This document shows positions 27,808 through 34,999 of a stretch of 64,000 nt of DNA, in pieces (the stretch's first letter is position 1; each line of letters begins with the position of its first letter). This DNA comes from an uncultured Siphonobacter sp. (lineage in GTDB: Bacteria; Bacteroidota; Bacteroidia; Cytophagales; Spirosomataceae). Made by a program: the position numbers and the translations under genes. Location of the stretch: positions 62,001 through 126,000 of the forward strand of contig CAJYIW010000018.1 of assembly GCA_913775095.1 (NCBI GenBank). The letters run 5' to 3'. Below the pieces are notes generated by a model. That model searched no databases. It was not told the origin of the DNA and saw only the letters and a program-made list of their open reading frames with translations.

Positions 27808-28431
27808 ATGACACCCACGCGAAAAGGAAGTTTTGTAAAGAAAACCAAAGACATTACCATTGGAGGGACCATTGCCCTGGCCCTTCTGACCGGGACCGTA
27901 GCCCTTCAGGGTTGCGGTGGCTCCAACGAACAGCGATACGAAGAACGCCAGGAAACGACCTTCGGAAAAGGCGTGCGTACGTATATTACCGAAACCAGTC
28001 CGGGCGAATTTAAAATTACCGATGAAGTTTCCGTGGCGGCTGACAGCAGTCAGGCTATTGTCCGGTATTACGACGGCCACCGCGACACCTTGAGTGCTCA
28101 GTCTGCGAAAGCTCTGATTGATCGGGAAGTGGTGAATAACCCTCAGTATCACGCGGGCCACAGCGGCCTGGGCAGTGCTTTGCTTTGGGGAGGCATGGGT
28201 TATTTCCTGGCGAACTCCCTGAATAACCGACGTTACCAGCAGTATTACAATCAGTACGGAGACCAGCAGCGATCCCGCTTTTATAACAACTCCTCCACGT
28301 TTAACCGTTCGAATAATGTCCGGCAGGAAGTACAAAGCTCCAGAAGTACGCGGGTAGTTCGGAGCACCCGTCCGTCCGGAGGACGTAGTGGTTACTTCAA
28401 CAGTGGCCGAAGCCGGAGCTATGGCGGATAA
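27808..28431 (+). CDS. UPF0323/YgiB-like lipoprotein with Gly-Gly C-terminus
   Basis: 207 aa. N-terminus with basic stretch, hydrophobic segment, lipobox VALQGC (Cys 36). A domain with GVRTYITETSPGEFKITDEV and DTLSAQSAKALIDREV follows, then a Gly-rich membrane-like loop SGLGSALLWGGMGYFLANSL, a Gln/Asn/Tyr-rich tract, and a Ser/Arg/Gly-rich tail ending RSRSYGG. The layout matches the UPF0323 family of epsilonproteobacteria and resembles E. coli YgiB, which (from memory) also ends in Gly-Gly. The next gene encodes a YgiC-like ATP-grasp ligase, the same pairing as in E. coli. Confidence 0.85.
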   Translation: MTPTRKGSFVKKTKDITIGGTIALALLTGTVALQGCGGSNEQRYEERQETTFGKGVRTYITETSPGEFKITDEVSVAADSSQAIVRYYDGHRDTLSAQSAKALIDREVVNNPQYHAGHSGLGSALLWGGMGYFLANSLNNRRYQQYYNQYGDQQRSRFYNNSSTFNRSNNVRQEVQSSRSTRVVRSTRPSGGRSGYFNSGRSRSYGG

Positions 28432-28437
28432 TCTTTA

Positions 28438-28572
28438 ATGTTTTGAGTTTAGGGTTTTGAGTTAGTTGATGATACCTGCTGTGTCTTTCATTTCAATTCA
28501 TTGTTACTCTCAGGTCCATATAAACGGAAACCTTCCACATTAACTCTAAACCCAAAACTCAAAACCATTTAA
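28438..28572. repeat. word-repeat inverted region (AAACTCAAAACCC type)
   Basis: The left arm TTTTGAGTTTAGGGTTTTGAG is complemented by the right arm CTCTAAACCCAAAACTCAAAA, about 80 bases apart. It spans almost the whole gap between the lipoprotein gene and the ATP-grasp gene. The same words recur at 53844-53966. Confidence 0.65.
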
Positions 28573-28582
28573 CACCAGACTC

Positions 28583-29755
28583 ATGATTAAAATAAAAACG
28601 TTACCAACGTCACCCGAGCCGCAGCTTCGTCAGATTGGCTGGGACTGGATGCTTGGTTCCGATACCCTTCCCTACCTTACGCACGAACTGGTCAGTGTGA
28701 ATCAGACGGAAGCTCAGGCCTACTACGACGCAGCGAATGATCTTTACGAAATGTTTGTCGAAGCCGGGCAGGCCGTTATTGATCAGAATCGTTTTGCTGA
28801 ACTGGGCATTCCCGAAAATTTGATTGAGCTGGTCAAACTGTCCTGGAATGATGATCGCCATCTGCACCTCTACGGACGATTCGATCTGGCGGGTGGGATC
28901 AGTGGTTTACCCATTAAACTGATTGAATTTAATGCCGATACGGCCACCTGCATTCCTGAAACGGGAATTGTGCAGTGGGCTCATCTGAAATCCAATGGGC
29001 TGGATGAAGCCGCCCAGTTTAATACCCTGTATGAATCGCTGGTTGAGAATTTTGAAATCCTTCGAAACCTTAATTCCGACTTGACGCCCACGCTACTGAT
29101 TTCTTCCATGCGGGATACGCCGGAGGATGATTCAAACGTACAGGTGCTGGGAGAAGCCGCCCGCGAGGCAGGGTTTGACATCGAATACGCCTACGTGGAT
29201 GAAGTAGAATTTTCACCCAGCGAAGGCATTTTCCGTCAGAATCCTCAGAATGGGACGTTCGAAAAATTTGACTTCTGGTTCAAACTCGTTCCCTGGGAAT
29301 ACATTGCCTGGTACGAACCCGATCTGGCCGATATCTTATCGCAGATGGTCCGGAACCGCAAAGCGGTCATCATTAATCCGGCGTACACCTTACTGTTTCA
29401 GTCAAAAGCCATTTTAAAGGTGTTATGGGAGATTTACCCCAATCACCCCTTGCTATTAGCGACGACCGATCAGGCTCCGGCTGGAAAAGCCTCCGTCCGG
29501 AAAGTACTTTTCGGACGGGAAGGAGCAAACGTTGAAATTCTGGATACCAACGGGACTGTCTCCGAACAGGCTGAAGGCGAGTACGGCGAGCAGGCGGTTA
29601 TCTATCAGGAATACACTGAATTTCCCGCCGACGCTCAGGGTAACCGGTATCAGGCCGGGGTATTTTTTGCGGGGGAAGGCTGCGGGTTAGGCTTCCGGAG
29701 AGGTGGCAGAATTCTGGATAATTCAGCCCAGTTTTCCGGTCATCTGGTCGAATAA
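28583..29755 (+). CDS. glutathionylspermidine-synthase-family ATP-grasp ligase (YgiC-like)
   Basis: 390 aa, no signal peptide. Motifs: IGWDWMLGSDTLPY, YGRFDLAGG, PIKLIEFNADTAT, then the ATP-grasp core with DFWFKLVPWEYI, INPAYTLLFQSKAILKVLWE, and near the C-terminus YQAGVFFAGEGCGLGFRRGG. Matches the YgiC/YjfC branch, which lacks the amidase domain of bifunctional glutathionylspermidine synthetase. These ligases make amide bonds using ATP; the substrate is not established. It probably acts with the upstream lipoprotein. Ends at a bidirectional terminator. Confidence 0.9.
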   Translation: MIKIKTLPTSPEPQLRQIGWDWMLGSDTLPYLTHELVSVNQTEAQAYYDAANDLYEMFVEAGQAVIDQNRFAELGIPENLIELVKLSWNDDRHLHLYGRFDLAGGISGLPIKLIEFNADTATCIPETGIVQWAHLKSNGLDEAAQFNTLYESLVENFEILRNLNSDLTPTLLISSMRDTPEDDSNVQVLGEAAREAGFDIEYAYVDEVEFSPSEGIFRQNPQNGTFEKFDFWFKLVPWEYIAWYEPDLADILSQMVRNRKAVIINPAYTLLFQSKAILKVLWEIYPNHPLLLATTDQAPAGKASVRKVLFGREGANVEILDTNGTVSEQAEGEYGEQAVIYQEYTEFPADAQGNRYQAGVFFAGEGCGLGFRRGGRILDNSAQFSGHLVE

Positions 29756-29861: not shown

Positions 29862-30206
29862 TTACTCGTGCTTCATTTTGCTGTCTTTCTTGCAGCAGGC
29901 GGGTAACTTGTCGTACCCTTTCTGATCGGCAGGAACTGCATTGGCATCGTACCCCGTCTTCGTAATGGTTTCGATGATCTGAGCTTCGTCGGTTTTCTTA
30001 CCGTCGTAGGTTACCGTTACTACTTTATCTTTCAAATCCAGATTAGCATCTTTCACGCCTTTCGAAAAACCCAGATTTTTTTCAATGCGGGCTTTGCACA
30101 TGCCGCAAATCGCTGAGGTTTTGATTTTTACCGTTTTAGGTTCGTCTTTCGCCCAGACCATTCCGCTGAGCAGCAAGCAGAAACTTAATACCAGAGATTT
30201 TACCAT
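29862..30206 (-). CDS. secreted heavy-metal-associated (HMA) domain protein
   Basis: 114 aa. Signal peptide MVKSLVLSFCLLLSGMVWA, then a single ferredoxin-like HMA domain with the metal motif CGMCKARIE, YDGKKTDE and GYDANAV, plus a second Cys pair (PACCKKD) near the C-terminus and a His/Met/Lys tail. Probably a periplasmic Cu(I) binder/chaperone. It is the last gene of the copper-related minus-strand cluster, separated from the next upstream gene by a 20-bp perfect inverted repeat. Confidence 0.9.
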   Translation of the reverse strand: MVKSLVLSFCLLLSGMVWAKDEPKTVKIKTSAICGMCKARIEKNLGFSKGVKDANLDLKDKVVTVTYDGKKTDEAQIIETITKTGYDANAVPADQKGYDKLPACCKKDSKMKHE

Positions 30207-30239
30207 GAGTTTATAATTGGTTAGTAATGAAACAATAAA

Positions 30240-30360
30240 GGGAGTTTGAAAAGTTTGATGAGCTTCTAAAAAGTTTGAGATGTTTGAGTTTAACAGTTAG
30301 ATAAAGTTTGAAAATGTTTAGTCACTCAATATTTTCAAACTTTATCTAACAATCAAACCC
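30240..30360. repeat. AAGTTTGA word-repeat region with a perfect 20-bp hairpin
   Basis: GTTAGATAAAGTTTGAAAAT (30296-30315) and its exact reverse complement (30331-30350) are 15 bases apart; the preceding 50 bases repeat AAGTTTGA words. It lies between two co-directional copper-locus genes. Confidence 0.75.
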
Positions 30361-30377
30361 TATTTAAAATCTATCCC

Positions 30378-30716
30378 TTATGCGGCAACCGTCATTGCCT
30401 CGCACACTTCGGCACAATGCTGGCAGGCTTCCGCACAGCGGGCACATACTTCATCGCCGTGGCTGGCGTGTTTTTCACATTCTGCCGCACAGGCTTTGCA
30501 TACCTCCGCACAAAGGCGTGCTATTTCTAGGGCATACTCTGAATCACGGGCACACAGGCGGGCACAGGTAGTACAAACTTCCGCACAATCCCGGCATAGC
30601 TGGATACACTTCGTGCGATCCATCTCGTGTCCGGTTTTGGTCAGGCAATTGGTAACGCAGGCTTCGCAGGTTTTAATGCAGGCCAGACAGGCCTCCAGGC
30701 AGGCTTCCCTATTCAT
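30378..30716 (-). CDS. four-helix-bundle copper storage protein (Csp-like)
   Basis: 112 aa with 21 cysteines, mostly spaced CxxC and CxxxC along amphipathic helices (e.g. ACLACIKTCEACVTNC, CRDCAEVCTTCARLC), the pattern of Csp proteins that store many Cu(I) ions inside a helical bundle. No signal peptide is present, so it resembles the cytosolic Csp3 type. The ATG at 30716 starts MNREACLEAC; an upstream TTG adds three residues and is rejected. Context, between an HMA protein and a metal-type outer-membrane protein, supports copper. Confidence 0.92.
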   Translation of the reverse strand: MNREACLEACLACIKTCEACVTNCLTKTGHEMDRTKCIQLCRDCAEVCTTCARLCARDSEYALEIARLCAEVCKACAAECEKHASHGDEVCARCAEACQHCAEVCEAMTVAA

Positions 30717-30746
30717 AGCAATCAAGGTTTTGGTTGAATAATGATT

Positions 30747-32090
30747 CTACATTTTTAACCGGGTCGGCATCAGTCTCAGATATACCTGCCCGGCTAAAGG
30801 CGTTGATCCGTATAACGAATTTAATGCCTTATCCTGCAAAAAAACAGTGCCCTGAACTCCCGCAACCAACCACAATTTTCCTACCTGAGCTACCTGATGA
30901 TTATATCCTAAACTCAACGCATTCACGTTGTAAATCAGATTCGTAGGCAATGCTAATTCTTCCGCTGATTTCTGAACAAATTCATACCGACCGTACACCG
31001 CCCAGGTGTCGTGTTGCCAGTTGGATTCCACCAAAGCCGAATGCTCGTTGTGATGATCGCCTGACTGATTGTATCCCCAGGAAGCCGTTGAAGCGACCCA
31101 GCTGTTTTTACCCGTTGGGATGACGTGCTGAGCAGATGCCGTCGTACGATTGACGTTTTCTTCCGGTCGCAATCCTTCGGGCGAATGAATGTAAGCCCGG
31201 GAAGCCTGCAACGACCAGTTGCTGCAAGGATTCCAGGAAACCCGGTAACTGTAGGAATCAAAACGGGGTTTGTCGAAATCATAGCGGTTTTCGTTGGGTT
31301 CCCTACCCGTGAAACTGGATCCCTCCAGCTTTATCTGGCCAATCCGAATGCCCAGTGTAGCTACGCCAAAGGTAATGTGCGTGGCATCCTGCCAGTGGTG
31401 ACTCAGGGCAGCATCGGGGTTATTCATGGATGAAAAACGGTGCATGAACGCCGCTGGCCCTAAGGCTGGCTCCCCCGGATACCCCACATAACCCGAAATA
31501 TCAACCGTTGAACTTAATCGCTGGGTATAGCCAACGGTCAGTCCCGAAATCAGATCGTGCGGGTGCTGACGGTCAATCAGGGGATTACCCTTCCAGCTTT
31601 CTCCGGTTTGATACAGCAGGGGATACCCTCCGCCCCCTTCGGTCAGCCGATCCAGCGATACCATCAGGGACGCGGTGAATAATCCATTCTTACCCACGGG
31701 CCGCTGAGCCATGCCCATTACCCAGTTCGGAGCGGACAATCGACTCGCCTGCCCCCGTTTGCCCCTATTATTTATATTCTGAGCCGTGTATCGCAGAAAA
31801 ACGCTTCCGTGAACCATGTACATCCACTTCGACTGATGTTTCATCCAGGCGTATAACGGCGTAGCATCCGGCTGCCAGCCCGTTCCCGAGCCGTTTCGGT
31901 TCATCGGTAAACTCAGCGAATACGAGTGCGTCATGGAAGGATGGCCTTCGTGGTGTTCATGAGTCATGCCCTCATGCGACATACCATGATCGGGCTTAGT
32001 CGTATCCGCCTGCATCTGATGATGCTCATGCTGAGCGTGCAGGGGAATGGACAGAACTGATATAACGGCAGCGATAAGTAGTGTTTTCAT
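30747..32090 (-). CDS. outer-membrane beta-barrel protein with His/Met-rich N-terminus
   Basis: 447 aa. Signal peptide MKTLLIAAVISVLSIPLHA, then a metal-binding-looking stretch (HEHHQMQAD...HGMSHEGMTHEHHEGHPSM, about 20-55), then long alternating beta-strand sequence rich in aromatic residues (SGYVGYPGEPALGPAAFMHR, LEGSSFTGREPNENR). Ends in a hydrophobic residue pattern typical of barrels. Probably an outer-membrane protein involved in copper binding or efflux. Name and transport direction are not known. Confidence 0.8.
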   Translation of the reverse strand: MKTLLIAAVISVLSIPLHAQHEHHQMQADTTKPDHGMSHEGMTHEHHEGHPSMTHSYSLSLPMNRNGSGTGWQPDATPLYAWMKHQSKWMYMVHGSVFLRYTAQNINNRGKRGQASRLSAPNWVMGMAQRPVGKNGLFTASLMVSLDRLTEGGGGYPLLYQTGESWKGNPLIDRQHPHDLISGLTVGYTQRLSSTVDISGYVGYPGEPALGPAAFMHRFSSMNNPDAALSHHWQDATHITFGVATLGIRIGQIKLEGSSFTGREPNENRYDFDKPRFDSYSYRVSWNPCSNWSLQASRAYIHSPEGLRPEENVNRTTASAQHVIPTGKNSWVASTASWGYNQSGDHHNEHSALVESNWQHDTWAVYGRYEFVQKSAEELALPTNLIYNVNALSLGYNHQVAQVGKLWLVAGVQGTVFLQDKALNSLYGSTPLAGQVYLRLMPTRLKM

Positions 32091-32109
32091 GGCGTTTACA
32101 AGTTGTTCA

Positions 32110-32673
32110 TCAGATGTGATCCAGCGATTGACGCGTGGACTGATGGCCCTGCCGGAACTGGCTGGGGGTTAACCCGGTTACTTTTTTGAATTGATTGGAT
32201 AAATGAGCGACGCTACTGTACCCCAGTAAATCCGCGATTTCACTGAGGTTACGTTCATTATAGGTCAGTAACTCTTTAGTCTTTTCAATCTTTAATCGAA
32301 TCAGGTAATGTTCGATGGTCAGCCTTTCCAGCTCTGAGAAAAGCTTGCTTAACGCACTATAATCCCGGTTTAATTCTTCCGCTAAGTAACTGGATATGTT
32401 CAACTTCGCCCGACCCGGCTGGCTGATGTATTCGAGTATCAGTCGCTTCATCTGGTTGACTAACTGCTGACGCCGATCTTCCAGTAACTCAAAGCCCAAA
32501 CCCTCTAATTGCGTTTGAAGGGCTTCCCAATCAGGTACGCTGTCCGTAAGGACCACTTCCCCTAGCTCGACCCGTTCCGGTTTCATACCGAGCGATTCGA
32601 ACGTTTGTCGCACCACCATTTTACAGCGGTCGCAGACCATATTTTTGATATATACCGTCGTCATTCCTTGCAT
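32110..32673 (-). CDS. AraC-family regulator with N-terminal HMA metal domain
   Basis: 187 aa. Residues 1-65 form an HMA-like ferredoxin fold with the motif MVCDRCKMVV (CxxC), lacking the usual GMxC context. The C-terminal half is an AraC/XylS DNA-binding domain: SLAE-type first helix YLAEELNRDYSALSKLFSEL, then LSEIADLLGYSSVAHLSNQFKKVTGLTPSQFR. It is therefore a plausible one-component copper-responsive regulator of the locus. Two ATGs (32673 and 32664) are equally possible. Its 3' end is 20 bases from the start of the barrel gene. Confidence 0.88.
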   Translation of the reverse strand: MQGMTTVYIKNMVCDRCKMVVRQTFESLGMKPERVELGEVVLTDSVPDWEALQTQLEGLGFELLEDRRQQLVNQMKRLILEYISQPGRAKLNISSYLAEELNRDYSALSKLFSELERLTIEHYLIRLKIEKTKELLTYNERNLSEIADLLGYSSVAHLSNQFKKVTGLTPSQFRQGHQSTRQSLDHI

Positions 32674-32679
32674 TTCCGT

Positions 32680-34899
32680 TTACTGAATCTTGTATCTGAA
32701 TCCAGCGTAAATCATTCGCCCAATCACCGGACCCCACACCATCGAAGCATCGAAGTTTTTGCCAAAGGGATCATTGGCTCCGATGATTGGATTTTTCTGG
32801 GTGAAATTGGCCAGGTTTTCACCCCCTACGTATAAGGCCCAGGTTCTGAAATTTTTGGTTACCTGAGCATTCAGATTCGAAAAAGCCGGGGCGTAGACGG
32901 GTGGCGAGGTCACGTCATGAATATGGCCGGGATCACTGTTAGGGATGCGTCGGCGACCGTTCCACTGCCAGGTAAAGTCAAATTTCCACTTTTCAAACCG
33001 ATCACTGGTCCAGCCAATACTAAACAGAACCCGGTCGCGGTTGACGAACATTTTGGGCAGTAAGGTCTGATCGCCTCCCGGTGTCCGAACCGTTTGCTGC
33101 ACGTCGAACCAGCGGTAAGCCAGCTTGATTTCCGTGCGGGGTAAAGGTTGCAGGTTCCATTCCGCCTGAAAACTATTGGCAAAACTTTTGCCACGCAGGT
33201 TATATACCACAATTCGATCCGCCGATTCCATATCCACCACTAATTGATTCTGGAAATCCGTGCGGTAAAAATCCAGGGTAAAGCTGCTGTTTTTCCCACC
33301 CCAGGGTAAGGCTTTTGTCAGACTCAGGCCGTAGTTCCAGCTTTGTTCGGGGTTAATGCGGGAATCCAGCATGGTCCAGTTCCGGGAGTTCACCAGCATC
33401 CCGTAATTTTCAGCCACGGCATTAGGGACCCGCCAGCCTTTTCCGGCACTCAGTCGGGCATCAATTTCGGCGGGCAAGTGAAACAATGCGTGCAGACGGG
33501 GCGTAAAGCGGGTTCCGTAGAGGTTATGAAAATCGACCCGTCCTCCGGCAACCAGTGTCATTTTTTCGGGAATAGTGTAGGTATACTCTCCATACGCTCC
33601 GGGGACTAACTCTTTCCGGACAAAGGCGGAATCCAGGAATTTTTCGTTGAAATCATCCAGCACGAAACTGGCTCCGAGTTTGTAGGTATGCCGGGTATCA
33701 CCGATGATGTTCTGGTAAATCAGATTCCCATACAGCGTTTGTTCAATGCCCGAATATCGTTTAAATCCGAACCGGGCCGACGCATCGTGATAGACGCCAT
33801 TGAAGATAAGAGCCAGCCCTTTGTAAGGTTTATCGGGAAAAAGCTGAGCCGTTTTACTGAAAAATTCCAGTCGCCGGGTAACGTTACCGAACTCATACAC
33901 GTTGGGCCGGTCCCGTCCCGCATCCATTTGTCCGCCCAAACGATCTTCGTACAAAACCTTGACGCCAAACTGCGTCATCCAGCGGTCGCTCTGGTATTTC
34001 CAGCGGTTGATGATATTACCCTGCGAATACAGCGGTACATCTATAAATCCATCCTTGTTTTTGTCCAGCCGGGTTTGCAGCGTACTGCCGTGACTCAATA
34101 CCCCTACCGACCATTGATCGGTCAGCTTTTTAGCCAGGTTCAGGTTCAGTTCCGCCCGGCCAAAGCTATTGACGTACCCGTTCAAAAAAAGCTTGTCGTC
34201 ACCATCGGGTTTGGCCAGTTCGATGTTAATCGCTCCGGTCATGGCTTCGTAGCCATTCACCACACTGCCCACTCCTTTGGAAACATCAATTGAGCTGATC
34301 CAGGTACCCGGCGTATAATTCAGTCCAAACGTGGTATTGAGGCCCCGAATGTTGGGAATATTTTCGGTGTTAATCTGTACGTACGTTCCGGCCAGACCCA
34401 AGAGCTGAATTTGCTTGGCTCCGGTGACGGCATCCCCGTAACTCACCGAAACCGAGGCATTGGTTTCAAAGCTTTCGGACAGGTTACAGCAGGCGGCTTT
34501 GGCCAGCGATTTTGACGTAATGATTTCCGTATGAATCGGATTGATGCGGTCAATGGAAGAAGCCGCACCGGTCACGGTTACTTCCTCCAGCTGATTGGCG
34601 TTGACCAGGGTAACCGTCAGAGAATCCAGTGAGTGTACCTGTAGGGTATCGGAGCGATATCCTACCAGCGAAAACACCAGCTTTTGCTGTTCCGGATTTT
34701 TAGTGATTGAAAATTTTCCCTGACCATCGGTCTGGGTATTGATGGAAGTTCCTGACCAGTACACCGTTACCCCTACCAAAGGTTCAAGGGTTCCGTTGCT
34801 TTGCTTCTCGACCACGCGGCCGTTTAGTGTCTGGGCAAGAGCAGTATAACAGGTCCACAGAAGCAGAGCTCCAGTGAATAAAAATCGCTGAAAACGCAT
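32680..34899 (-). CDS. TonB-dependent receptor of the copper locus
   Basis: 739 aa. ATG at 34899 begins signal peptide MRFQRFLFTGALLLWTCYTALA. A carboxypeptidase-like regulatory domain (VVEKQSNGTLEPLVGVTVYW, about 26-110) precedes the plug, which carries AACCNLSESFETNASVSVSY, then SSIDVSKGVGSVVNGYEAMTGAIN, then a 22-strand barrel ending AGFRYKIQ. The Cys-Cys pair in the plug is characteristic of this receptor subgroup. Predicted to import a metal complex across the outer membrane; copper is inferred from neighbours. The HMA-AraC gene starts 7 bases after it. Confidence 0.9.
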   Translation of the reverse strand: MRFQRFLFTGALLLWTCYTALAQTLNGRVVEKQSNGTLEPLVGVTVYWSGTSINTQTDGQGKFSITKNPEQQKLVFSLVGYRSDTLQVHSLDSLTVTLVNANQLEEVTVTGAASSIDRINPIHTEIITSKSLAKAACCNLSESFETNASVSVSYGDAVTGAKQIQLLGLAGTYVQINTENIPNIRGLNTTFGLNYTPGTWISSIDVSKGVGSVVNGYEAMTGAINIELAKPDGDDKLFLNGYVNSFGRAELNLNLAKKLTDQWSVGVLSHGSTLQTRLDKNKDGFIDVPLYSQGNIINRWKYQSDRWMTQFGVKVLYEDRLGGQMDAGRDRPNVYEFGNVTRRLEFFSKTAQLFPDKPYKGLALIFNGVYHDASARFGFKRYSGIEQTLYGNLIYQNIIGDTRHTYKLGASFVLDDFNEKFLDSAFVRKELVPGAYGEYTYTIPEKMTLVAGGRVDFHNLYGTRFTPRLHALFHLPAEIDARLSAGKGWRVPNAVAENYGMLVNSRNWTMLDSRINPEQSWNYGLSLTKALPWGGKNSSFTLDFYRTDFQNQLVVDMESADRIVVYNLRGKSFANSFQAEWNLQPLPRTEIKLAYRWFDVQQTVRTPGGDQTLLPKMFVNRDRVLFSIGWTSDRFEKWKFDFTWQWNGRRRIPNSDPGHIHDVTSPPVYAPAFSNLNAQVTKNFRTWALYVGGENLANFTQKNPIIGANDPFGKNFDASMVWGPVIGRMIYAGFRYKIQ

Positions 34900-34999
34900 A
34901 AAATCATGGCTAAATGAATACAGAGAGAACTCCCAATGCCTGAGCATTCGGATCAGTCTGAGTAGGCTTATCTTCTCAGAATCAAGTATTCTAAGCCAA

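Follow-up and report, generated by a model that had tools for sequence, protein, structure and literature searches.

What does a stand-alone ATP-grasp ligase use as its substrate when the neighbouring gene encodes a lipoprotein with a conserved C-terminal end? The question is raised by two genes on the plus strand of a 64,000-nucleotide stretch of DNA (the window) from an uncultured Siphonobacter sp. of the family Spirosomataceae in the Bacteroidota (GenBank assembly GCA_913775095.1, contig CAJYIW010000018.1, positions 62,001 to 126,000), one for a lipoprotein (27808–28431) and one for a ligase of the glutathionylspermidine synthase family (28583–29755). A first-pass annotation of this DNA had described a lipoprotein ending in SRSYGG followed by a YgiC-like ligase, and the open reading frames (ORFs), together with a match of the ligase to PF03738, bear this out. 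It had further proposed that the ligase takes the C-terminal glycine carboxylate of the lipoprotein as its substrate. In favour of this proposal, we found that the two proteins are strict partners in both genome samples and that small end residues are selectively kept in the lipoprotein tail and on the tails of other protein families as well. With slightly more confidence than doubt, we read the lipoprotein and the ligase as an enzyme–substrate pair, in which the ligase would join a polyamine to the C-terminal carboxylate of the tail.

The ligase was present in 67 of the 81 genomes of the window's family. The fetched locus contained the lipoprotein gene in 55 of these 67 genomes, and all of the remaining 12 (12/12) carry it at another place in the genome; it was absent from all 14 family genomes without the ligase, among which G423 is 63% complete. 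These 14 genomes carry nine genus labels, and in the genus g198 one genome (G461) is without both genes while three others have both; the losses of the pair were therefore not all one event. Among 150 genomes of Campylobacterota, the ligase was detected in 134 and the lipoprotein in 134, the same 16 genomes being without either. The corresponding Fisher's test (7e-22, uncorrected for kinship) overstates the number of independent events, because the kinship among the 16 negative genomes is not given. The Campylobacterota loci also agree with the first-pass annotation, which had described epsilonproteobacterial lipoproteins with the same layout and the same partner. Wherever a locus carried both genes, the lipoprotein lay upstream on the same strand (133/133, a few duplicates included), and the two genes were close or overlapping in many loci. 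The ligase and the lipoprotein are thus strict partners in both samples, i.e., the 81 family genomes and the 150 genomes of Campylobacterota. In Pseudomonadota (249 genomes), DUF1190, the family of the lipoprotein YgiB, was found in 25 genomes and PF03738 in 44, and 24 of the 25 DUF1190 genomes had a ligase.

The window lipoprotein has 207 residues and is encoded in a single copy in the genome. Its lipobox (...VALQGC) places the lipidation site, by eye, at Cys36 (codon 27913–27915). In an alignment of 36 lipoproteins (A2), whose mean column identity is 26%, C36, G90, L121, G131, G135 and G206 were nearly invariant. The AlphaFold2 model was confident for residues 45–186 (27940–28365), a folded domain with strands followed by helices and a final strand at 179–186, and the mean predicted local distance difference test score (pLDDT) was 53 for residues 191–200 and 55 for residues 201–207, suggesting that the low-confidence tail (residues 187–207; 28366–28428) is probably disordered. 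This tail is Gln/Ser/Arg/Gly-rich and terminates in SRSYGG (RSGYFNSGRSRSYGG), the Ser/Gly/Arg-rich C-terminus reading RPSGGRSGYFNSGRSRSYGG. Two parts of it stood out in the tail alignment: RSGYF (residues 193–197; 28384–28398), the inner half of a bipartite motif, and the C-terminal Tyr-Gly-Gly (residues 205–207; 28420–28428), which includes G206 and would provide the acceptor carboxylate. The Gly-Gly end was unique to the lipoprotein among 115 window ORFs of at least 80 residues, and the 778 distinct neighbour ORFs compiled from the fetched loci ended in Gly-Gly in 1.0% of cases and in Gly in 7.2%; given this rarity, the end is more than chance. A Pfam scan of the lipoprotein, taken up to E 1, was empty. 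Membership in DUF1190 (PF06693, the family of YgiB and YjfM) was rejected by Pfam, one of the 36 relatives reaching E 0.0029, and a known fold for the core was rejected as well, as no PDB entry matched the domain in Foldseek at an E value of 0.001 or lower. The profile NF003146, which we take to be UPF0323, matched residues 11–202 at E 2.2e-12 with 46.8 bits (cut-off 194); the protein is a homologue of NF003146 below the curated cut-off, not an equivalog.

To describe the ends of such tails, we compiled 141 distinct ones, after merging those with identical last 60 residues (149 before merging) and omitting duplicates (L002–L004, L184, L187 and L191), proteins cut by contig ends (L192 and L207) and DUF1190 proteins (L221 and L225). 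Eighty-five of the 141 end in Gly-Gly; the last residue is Gly in 99, Ser in 38, Ala in 3 and Thr in 1. The residue at position −3 is Phe or Tyr in 103, and an inner [RK]-S/G-G-F element is found in 132. With 32 more tails from Campylobacterota the set grew to 173, of which 172 terminate in Gly, Ser or Ala and 128 have Gly as the penultimate residue; the protein with the Thr end (L035), whose frame is interrupted, was kept in these counts, and L245, whose end is disrupted, was dropped from the larger one. When the proteins minus their last 30 residues were clustered at 60% identity, 27 of the 43 clusters had the Gly-Gly end, where tail composition predicts 3.8%; a Gly, Ser or Ala end was present in 42, where 51% is predicted. 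A Gly-rich composition of the tail therefore does not account for the terminal glycines, since the Gly-Gly clusters lie far above the expectation from composition. The rule for the end is a small residue, not strictly Gly, and SS, HS and HG ends also occur in the window's own family. In Campylobacterota, those lipoproteins unlinked to their ligase whose ends were read mostly retain GG or GS.

A rule for the tail was passed by a same-strand ORF within 3 kb of the ligase at 118 of the 147 window-type loci. In the three other ligase classes the passing loci numbered 9/10, 31/37 and 8/12; among the 31, the ORF of L320 looks like a wrong frame. No ORF passed beside the amidase-fused GspSA enzymes (0/9). 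Background ORFs yielded no pass (0/604), and neither did the opposite-strand ORFs around the same ligases, read in all frames (0/1411). The positives were tested on all-frame same-strand ORFs of at least 80 residues and the 604 background ORFs are non-overlapping calls, which makes the 1411 all-frame ORFs the fairer control; 130 of the 166 passing loci pass with a non-overlapping call too (102/118, 7/9, 13/31 and 8/8 for the four classes). The 29 window-type misses comprise 12 family genomes in which the genes are unlinked, nine loci without the lipoprotein (L105, L110, L127, L144, L151, L159, L161, L170 and L176) and eight partners that fail the pattern.

Similar tails, with an [RK]-S/G-G-F element and after it a Gly, Ser or Ala end, were found on ligase partners other than the window-type lipoprotein, in families that Pfam does not join. 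In Escherichia coli, YgiB ends in RGGFGESV...SRSMGG and ygiB stops 5 nucleotides before ygiC, just as the first-pass annotation had stated of the SRSMGG end and its neighbour, and YjfM ends in RGGYGRSSSARGHWGG. One DUF1190 protein alone (L231, in G565) comes from a genome where PF03738 found nothing; it has no RGGF element and ends in PSEGS. Other Bacteroidota carry a short lipoprotein followed by a YgiC/YjfC-like ligase; the inner element of these lipoproteins is RGGFG or a variant of it (RGLLG, RGGLG, NAGFG or GRVFG) and the end is SS, HA or GS. Pseudomonadota partners from genomes that have no DUF1190 match have ends like RGGFG...SGGG, some together with a plain hydrophobic segment. Beside a divergent class of Bacteroidota ligases (L025–L029, L031, L032, L097 and L099), a protein of ~460 residues is encoded downstream, with an end such as GSFGRSGGFSGG, a GSFGR...-type tail; three of these proteins were scanned and matched no Pfam family above its cut-off, and the protein upstream of the ligase is DUF350 where tested (L029). 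Misframed ORF rows (L222, L230, L232, L234 and L235) were left out of this reading of partner tails. On plasmids, partners with a similar tail occur in Actinomycetota, Deinococcota and Cyanobacteriota. Among the partners whose N-terminus was read by eye, most have a lipobox or a hydrophobic anchor, which in the Arthrobacter partner follows a leader of ~40 residues. In L321 and L322, a lipoprotein ending in SRGGF...RSSGG lies immediately 5' of the ligase. We infer that the L322 protein is the counterpart of Haemophilus NTHI1101, because an enolase-like gene lies upstream (by eye) in both operons. In an over-expressing strain, outer-membrane fractions were reported to contain NTHI1101, which was not found at the surface (PMC13055389). 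In plasmid pCff1 of Curtobacterium flaccumfaciens (L340), the ligase is annotated as two pieces and the DUF1190-annotated partner ends in VGG.

The window ligase (390 residues) is a YgiC/YjfC-like stand-alone enzyme that starts 151 nucleotides 3' of the lipoprotein ORF and is the sole PF03738 match in the host genome. PF03738 (GSP_synth) matched it at E 8.7e-111 with 371 bits (cut-off 29.3), over positions 4–371 of 371, and no amidase domain was found in it by Pfam, whereas the GspSA controls have 620–646 residues. By eye, it has no signal peptide. phmmer ranked E. coli YgiC (7uk8) and YjfC (7uk6) ahead of GspSA and trypanothione synthetase, and the AlphaFold2 model (pLDDT 93.1; predicted template-modelling score 0.92) was closest in the PDB to YjfC (7uk6; TM-score 0.88), with YgiC (7uk8) at 0.82. 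Four residues, Arg99 and Asp101 (28877–28885) and Glu115 and Asn117 (28925–28933), are invariant among 44 ligase sequences. They form the same pattern as R139/D141 and E163/N165 around the active site of the fungal ATP-grasp ligase Cp1B, where Ala at any of the four positions lowered or abolished activity (PMC12568646). The window ligase thus has the GspS-family fold with intact catalytic residues and no amidase domain. Its best named matches are in Runella, Larkinella, Fibrisoma, Spirosoma, Emticicia and Dyadobacter. It is 44–56% identical to ligases of Campylobacterota and some Gammaproteobacteria, 25–28% to YgiC and YjfC, and 26–31% to the YgiC-like ligases of other Bacteroidota. Because it stands nearer to the first group than to the YgiC-like ligases of its own phylum, the sequences suggest that the ligase was transferred between phyla long ago.

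How could a ligase act on a lipoprotein? GspSA couples the glycine carboxylate of glutathione to spermidine. The RefSeq name of both E. coli YgiC and YjfC is 'peptide--spermidine ligase', and a 2023 study by Pederick et al. is said, by its title, to describe peptide–spermidine ligase activity of the two. The partnership, the selection on the tail and the intact active site are observations on the genes and proteins themselves; the chemistry on the window lipoprotein would follow by analogy with the activity reported for YgiC and YjfC, which also narrows the amine or peptide of the first-pass annotation to a polyamine. In the proposed sequence of events, the cytosolic ligase would recognise the tail of the lipoprotein precursor, phosphorylate its C-terminal carboxylate at the expense of ATP, and form an amide with a primary amine of spermidine or of a related polyamine from the carboxy/nor-spermidine pathway encoded by the host. 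The terminal residue of the tail would play the part that the Gly of glutathione plays for GspS. Sec export would be completed afterwards and the lipoprotein sorted to the envelope, where the tail would hold a fixed polycation, with anionic lipids or polymers of the wall as its possible targets under envelope stress.

The host genome (5.65 Mb, 99% complete) carries nspC, encoding carboxynorspermidine decarboxylase, above the cut-off. The idea that polyamine synthesis tracks the ligase was rejected, because nspC is found in ligase-less relatives too. We failed to find a PF02955 glutathione synthetase in the host genome, in a search that did not extend to gshA or fused enzymes, and the window itself encodes a YpdA-family bacillithiol disulfide reductase (TIGR04018; 23591–24601), which makes it probable that this host relies on bacillithiol. 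With no PF02955 match and with YpdA in the window, glutathione is unlikely as a substrate here.

Several observations weigh against an enzyme–substrate pair of this kind, and the compartments are the main difficulty of polyamine capping. The ligase needs cytosolic ATP and the tail ends up outside, so that ligation must beat translocation. The problem would be solved if the C-terminus of the precursor, the last part to cross the membrane, were modified first, and the close or overlapping gene order might aid such modification. The last residue is a second point: in the 173 tails it is Gly in 119, Ser in 49, Ala in 4 and Thr in 1. A strict Gly-Gly rule was rejected for this reason (non-Gly in 54 of 173), and conserved C-terminal glycines, which the first-pass annotation had expected of ligase-linked lipoproteins, hold as a conserved small residue and in part fail as glycine. 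Among 13 unlinked Bacteroidota partners, the end is SS in eight and GG in just one. The partnership is also looser elsewhere. In Pseudomonadota, 20 of the 44 PF03738 genomes have no DUF1190; inspected by eye, five of these have the bifunctional enzyme only, one has a sub-threshold match and 14 have a stand-alone ligase, beside which another partner or none was seen (no clear one in L290 and L320). For the divergent Bacteroidota ligases L024, L030 and L033, no partner was seen in the short flanks. The recall of the tail rule on known tails is not independent, because the rule was written after the tails had been seen. Frozen and applied to 20 held-out plasmid loci, picked for diversity among 60 of 154 records, the rule found 11, with 1 of 134 opposite-strand ORFs passing. 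Seven more of these loci have a near-variant nearby (e.g., SRGGWG...SWGS, SRNGFG...SGG or SRGGL...SSGG), and for two (Photobacterium and Azospirillum brasilense) no partner turned up within 3 kb. Of the 18 partners, 13 end in GG, 3 in GS, 1 in HA and 1 in SS, and P values for them are not blind, because the partners were chosen by position after the tails had been seen; another gene separates the pair in L327, and the partner lies downstream in L329, L331, L332 and L336. The A2 profile matches two DUF1190 proteins, L225 (E 1.3e-9, residues 92–202) and L221 (E 3.4e-5). These matches may reflect a distant kinship between DUF1190 proteins and window-type lipoproteins, with the tail perhaps inherited; since the profile reaches L225, convergence is not needed to explain the tail that they share. 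Polyamine supply and glutathione add two further points: nspC occurs in 13 of the 14 ligase-less relatives, and PF02955 matches 14 of the 20 genomes searched, weakly in the same-genus genomes G409 and G448. Finally, deletion of NTHI1101 gave no phenotype (PMC13055389).

Among the alternatives to the enzyme–substrate pair, one in which the tail serves for binding survives best, and we regard it as unlikely. The tail would dock on the ligase or on an envelope partner, and the ligase would make a small peptide–polyamine that the lipoprotein senses or binds. The inner element is more constant (132/141) than the Gly-Gly end (85/141), as expected of a docking motif, and peptides are the reported substrates of YgiC and YjfC. 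Docking, however, leaves the small last residue (172/173) and the penultimate Gly (128/173) unexplained, and GspSA makes a small conjugate yet has no tail partner (0/9).

Rather unlikely, in our view, is a carrier role, in which the tail carboxylate would be a temporary handle for a polyamine or an amino acid that is later released, the lipoprotein being a cofactor or an export vehicle. Such a carrier has precedents in the amino-group carrier LysW and in the PEARL scaffold peptides. Strict partnership and a conserved C-terminus fit it equally, and the DUF350 membrane proteins that adjoin several pairs could be the exporter. A recycled carrier would nevertheless be expected in the cytosol, whereas most partners are, by eye, anchored or lipobox-bearing; no recurrent second ligase, transferase or peptidase was seen in the loci, which were not systematically searched for one. 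The least probable of the three is a role of the tail in the envelope unrelated to the ligase (sorting, or contact with TolC or peptidoglycan), the ligase being a functional neighbour in the same stress response: the listing of ygiB and ygiC in the tolC operon, with tolC itself changing with BaeR (PMC2731931), and the PspA and DUF350 neighbours (PMC11237479) speak for it, but co-occurrence persists with the genes apart (12/12 in the family), and a shared regulon alone explains poorly why the tail stands beside amidase-less ligases and not beside GspSA. As for protein tagging in the sense of ubiquitin (protein onto protein), which the first-pass annotation had raised, nothing in the analysis supports it.

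The enzyme–substrate pair may belong to something wider. It is attractive to speculate, tentatively and with more doubt than confidence, on a protein-polyamination system in at least six phyla, in which amidase-less ATP-grasp ligases would cap with spermidine, in transit, the C-terminal tag of dedicated membrane-anchored substrates. The tag would be bipartite, [RK]-G/S-G-F...(F/Y/W)-G-G, and borne by substrates from several families not joined by Pfam. Candidate substrates of YgiC/YjfC-type ligases can now be named for individual lineages; in E. coli K-12 they are YgiB and YjfM. If the proposal is true, envelope proteins can bear a covalent C-terminal polyamine, linked by gene context to envelope stress (PspA and tolC).

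Two features around the pair are recorded here. The 151-nucleotide spacer between lipoprotein and ligase (28432–28582, plus strand) contains a 25-nucleotide inverted repeat (28440–28464 and 28541–28565) with 92% complementarity and 76 nucleotides between the arms; same-genus genomes have unlike spacers (93, 47, 47 and 12 nucleotides), and inspection by eye shows a separate inverted repeat in one of them. Beyond the ligase, a metal-related block on the minus strand (29862–34947) includes HMA/CopZ-like and Csp1/DUF326-like Cys-rich proteins, a 447-residue protein without a family, an AraC-type regulator and a TonB-dependent receptor.

Earlier publications already describe both the pairing of the genes and the activity of the ligase. 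A PspA-linked operon group (group 3) of Ravi et al. 2024 lists an ATP-grasp ligase, a DUF1190 lipoprotein and DUF350, and related operons also carry PspA, DUF350, S-adenosylmethionine decarboxylase and polyamine oxidase; the group is read there as a polyamine and membrane-stress context, and the tail or lipoprotein is not named as a substrate in the passages covered (PMC11237479). In Flavobacterium columnare without SppA, ygiC and two lipoprotein-annotated genes appear in the list of genes that changed (PMC13236525). The published context of the tolC operon and the PspA-linked operons would suit a function in envelope stress. YgiC is listed in a table as being without glutathionylspermidine synthase activity (PMC12506659). 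In the open-licence literature, covered at passage level with Pederick 2023 and Iyer 2009 outside its scope, we found neither the tail named as ligase substrate, nor a natural substrate named for YgiC or YjfC, nor a covalent C-terminal polyamine on bacterial envelope proteins. Our additions are fourfold: ligase and lipoprotein co-occur exactly in both samples, the end residues are selectively conserved, the tail recurs on several partner families, and no such tail was seen beside GspSA.

Among the known systems close to the window pair, that of Campylobacterota (e.g., C. jejuni L132) has a homologous lipoprotein, a ligase 44–56% identical, and the same gene order and tail. We take the lipoprotein of that pair in C. 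jejuni to be Cj0371, which is reported to affect motility and chemotaxis. NF003146 matches 31 of the 36 A2 lipoproteins, while the window one lies far below the cut-off. E. coli YgiB–YgiC and YjfM–YjfC (PDB 7uk6, 7uk8 and 7uka) have, like the window, a stand-alone GSP_synth ligase of the same fold; YgiB and YjfM are DUF1190 proteins with RGGFG or RGGYG and a Gly-Gly end, whereas Pfam does not place the window lipoprotein in DUF1190. The window ligase, which is amidase-less, shares its synthetase fold with GspSA (E. coli gss) and trypanothione synthetase. In eukaryotes, the di-Gly C-terminus of SUMO or ubiquitin is amidated with spermidine by E1/E2, a different enzyme system, giving for SUMO a shift of +127.15 Da (PMC12270671). 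If the protein-polyamination reading holds, capping of a tag in bacteria would have been reached in parallel with this eukaryotic SUMO–spermidine conjugation.

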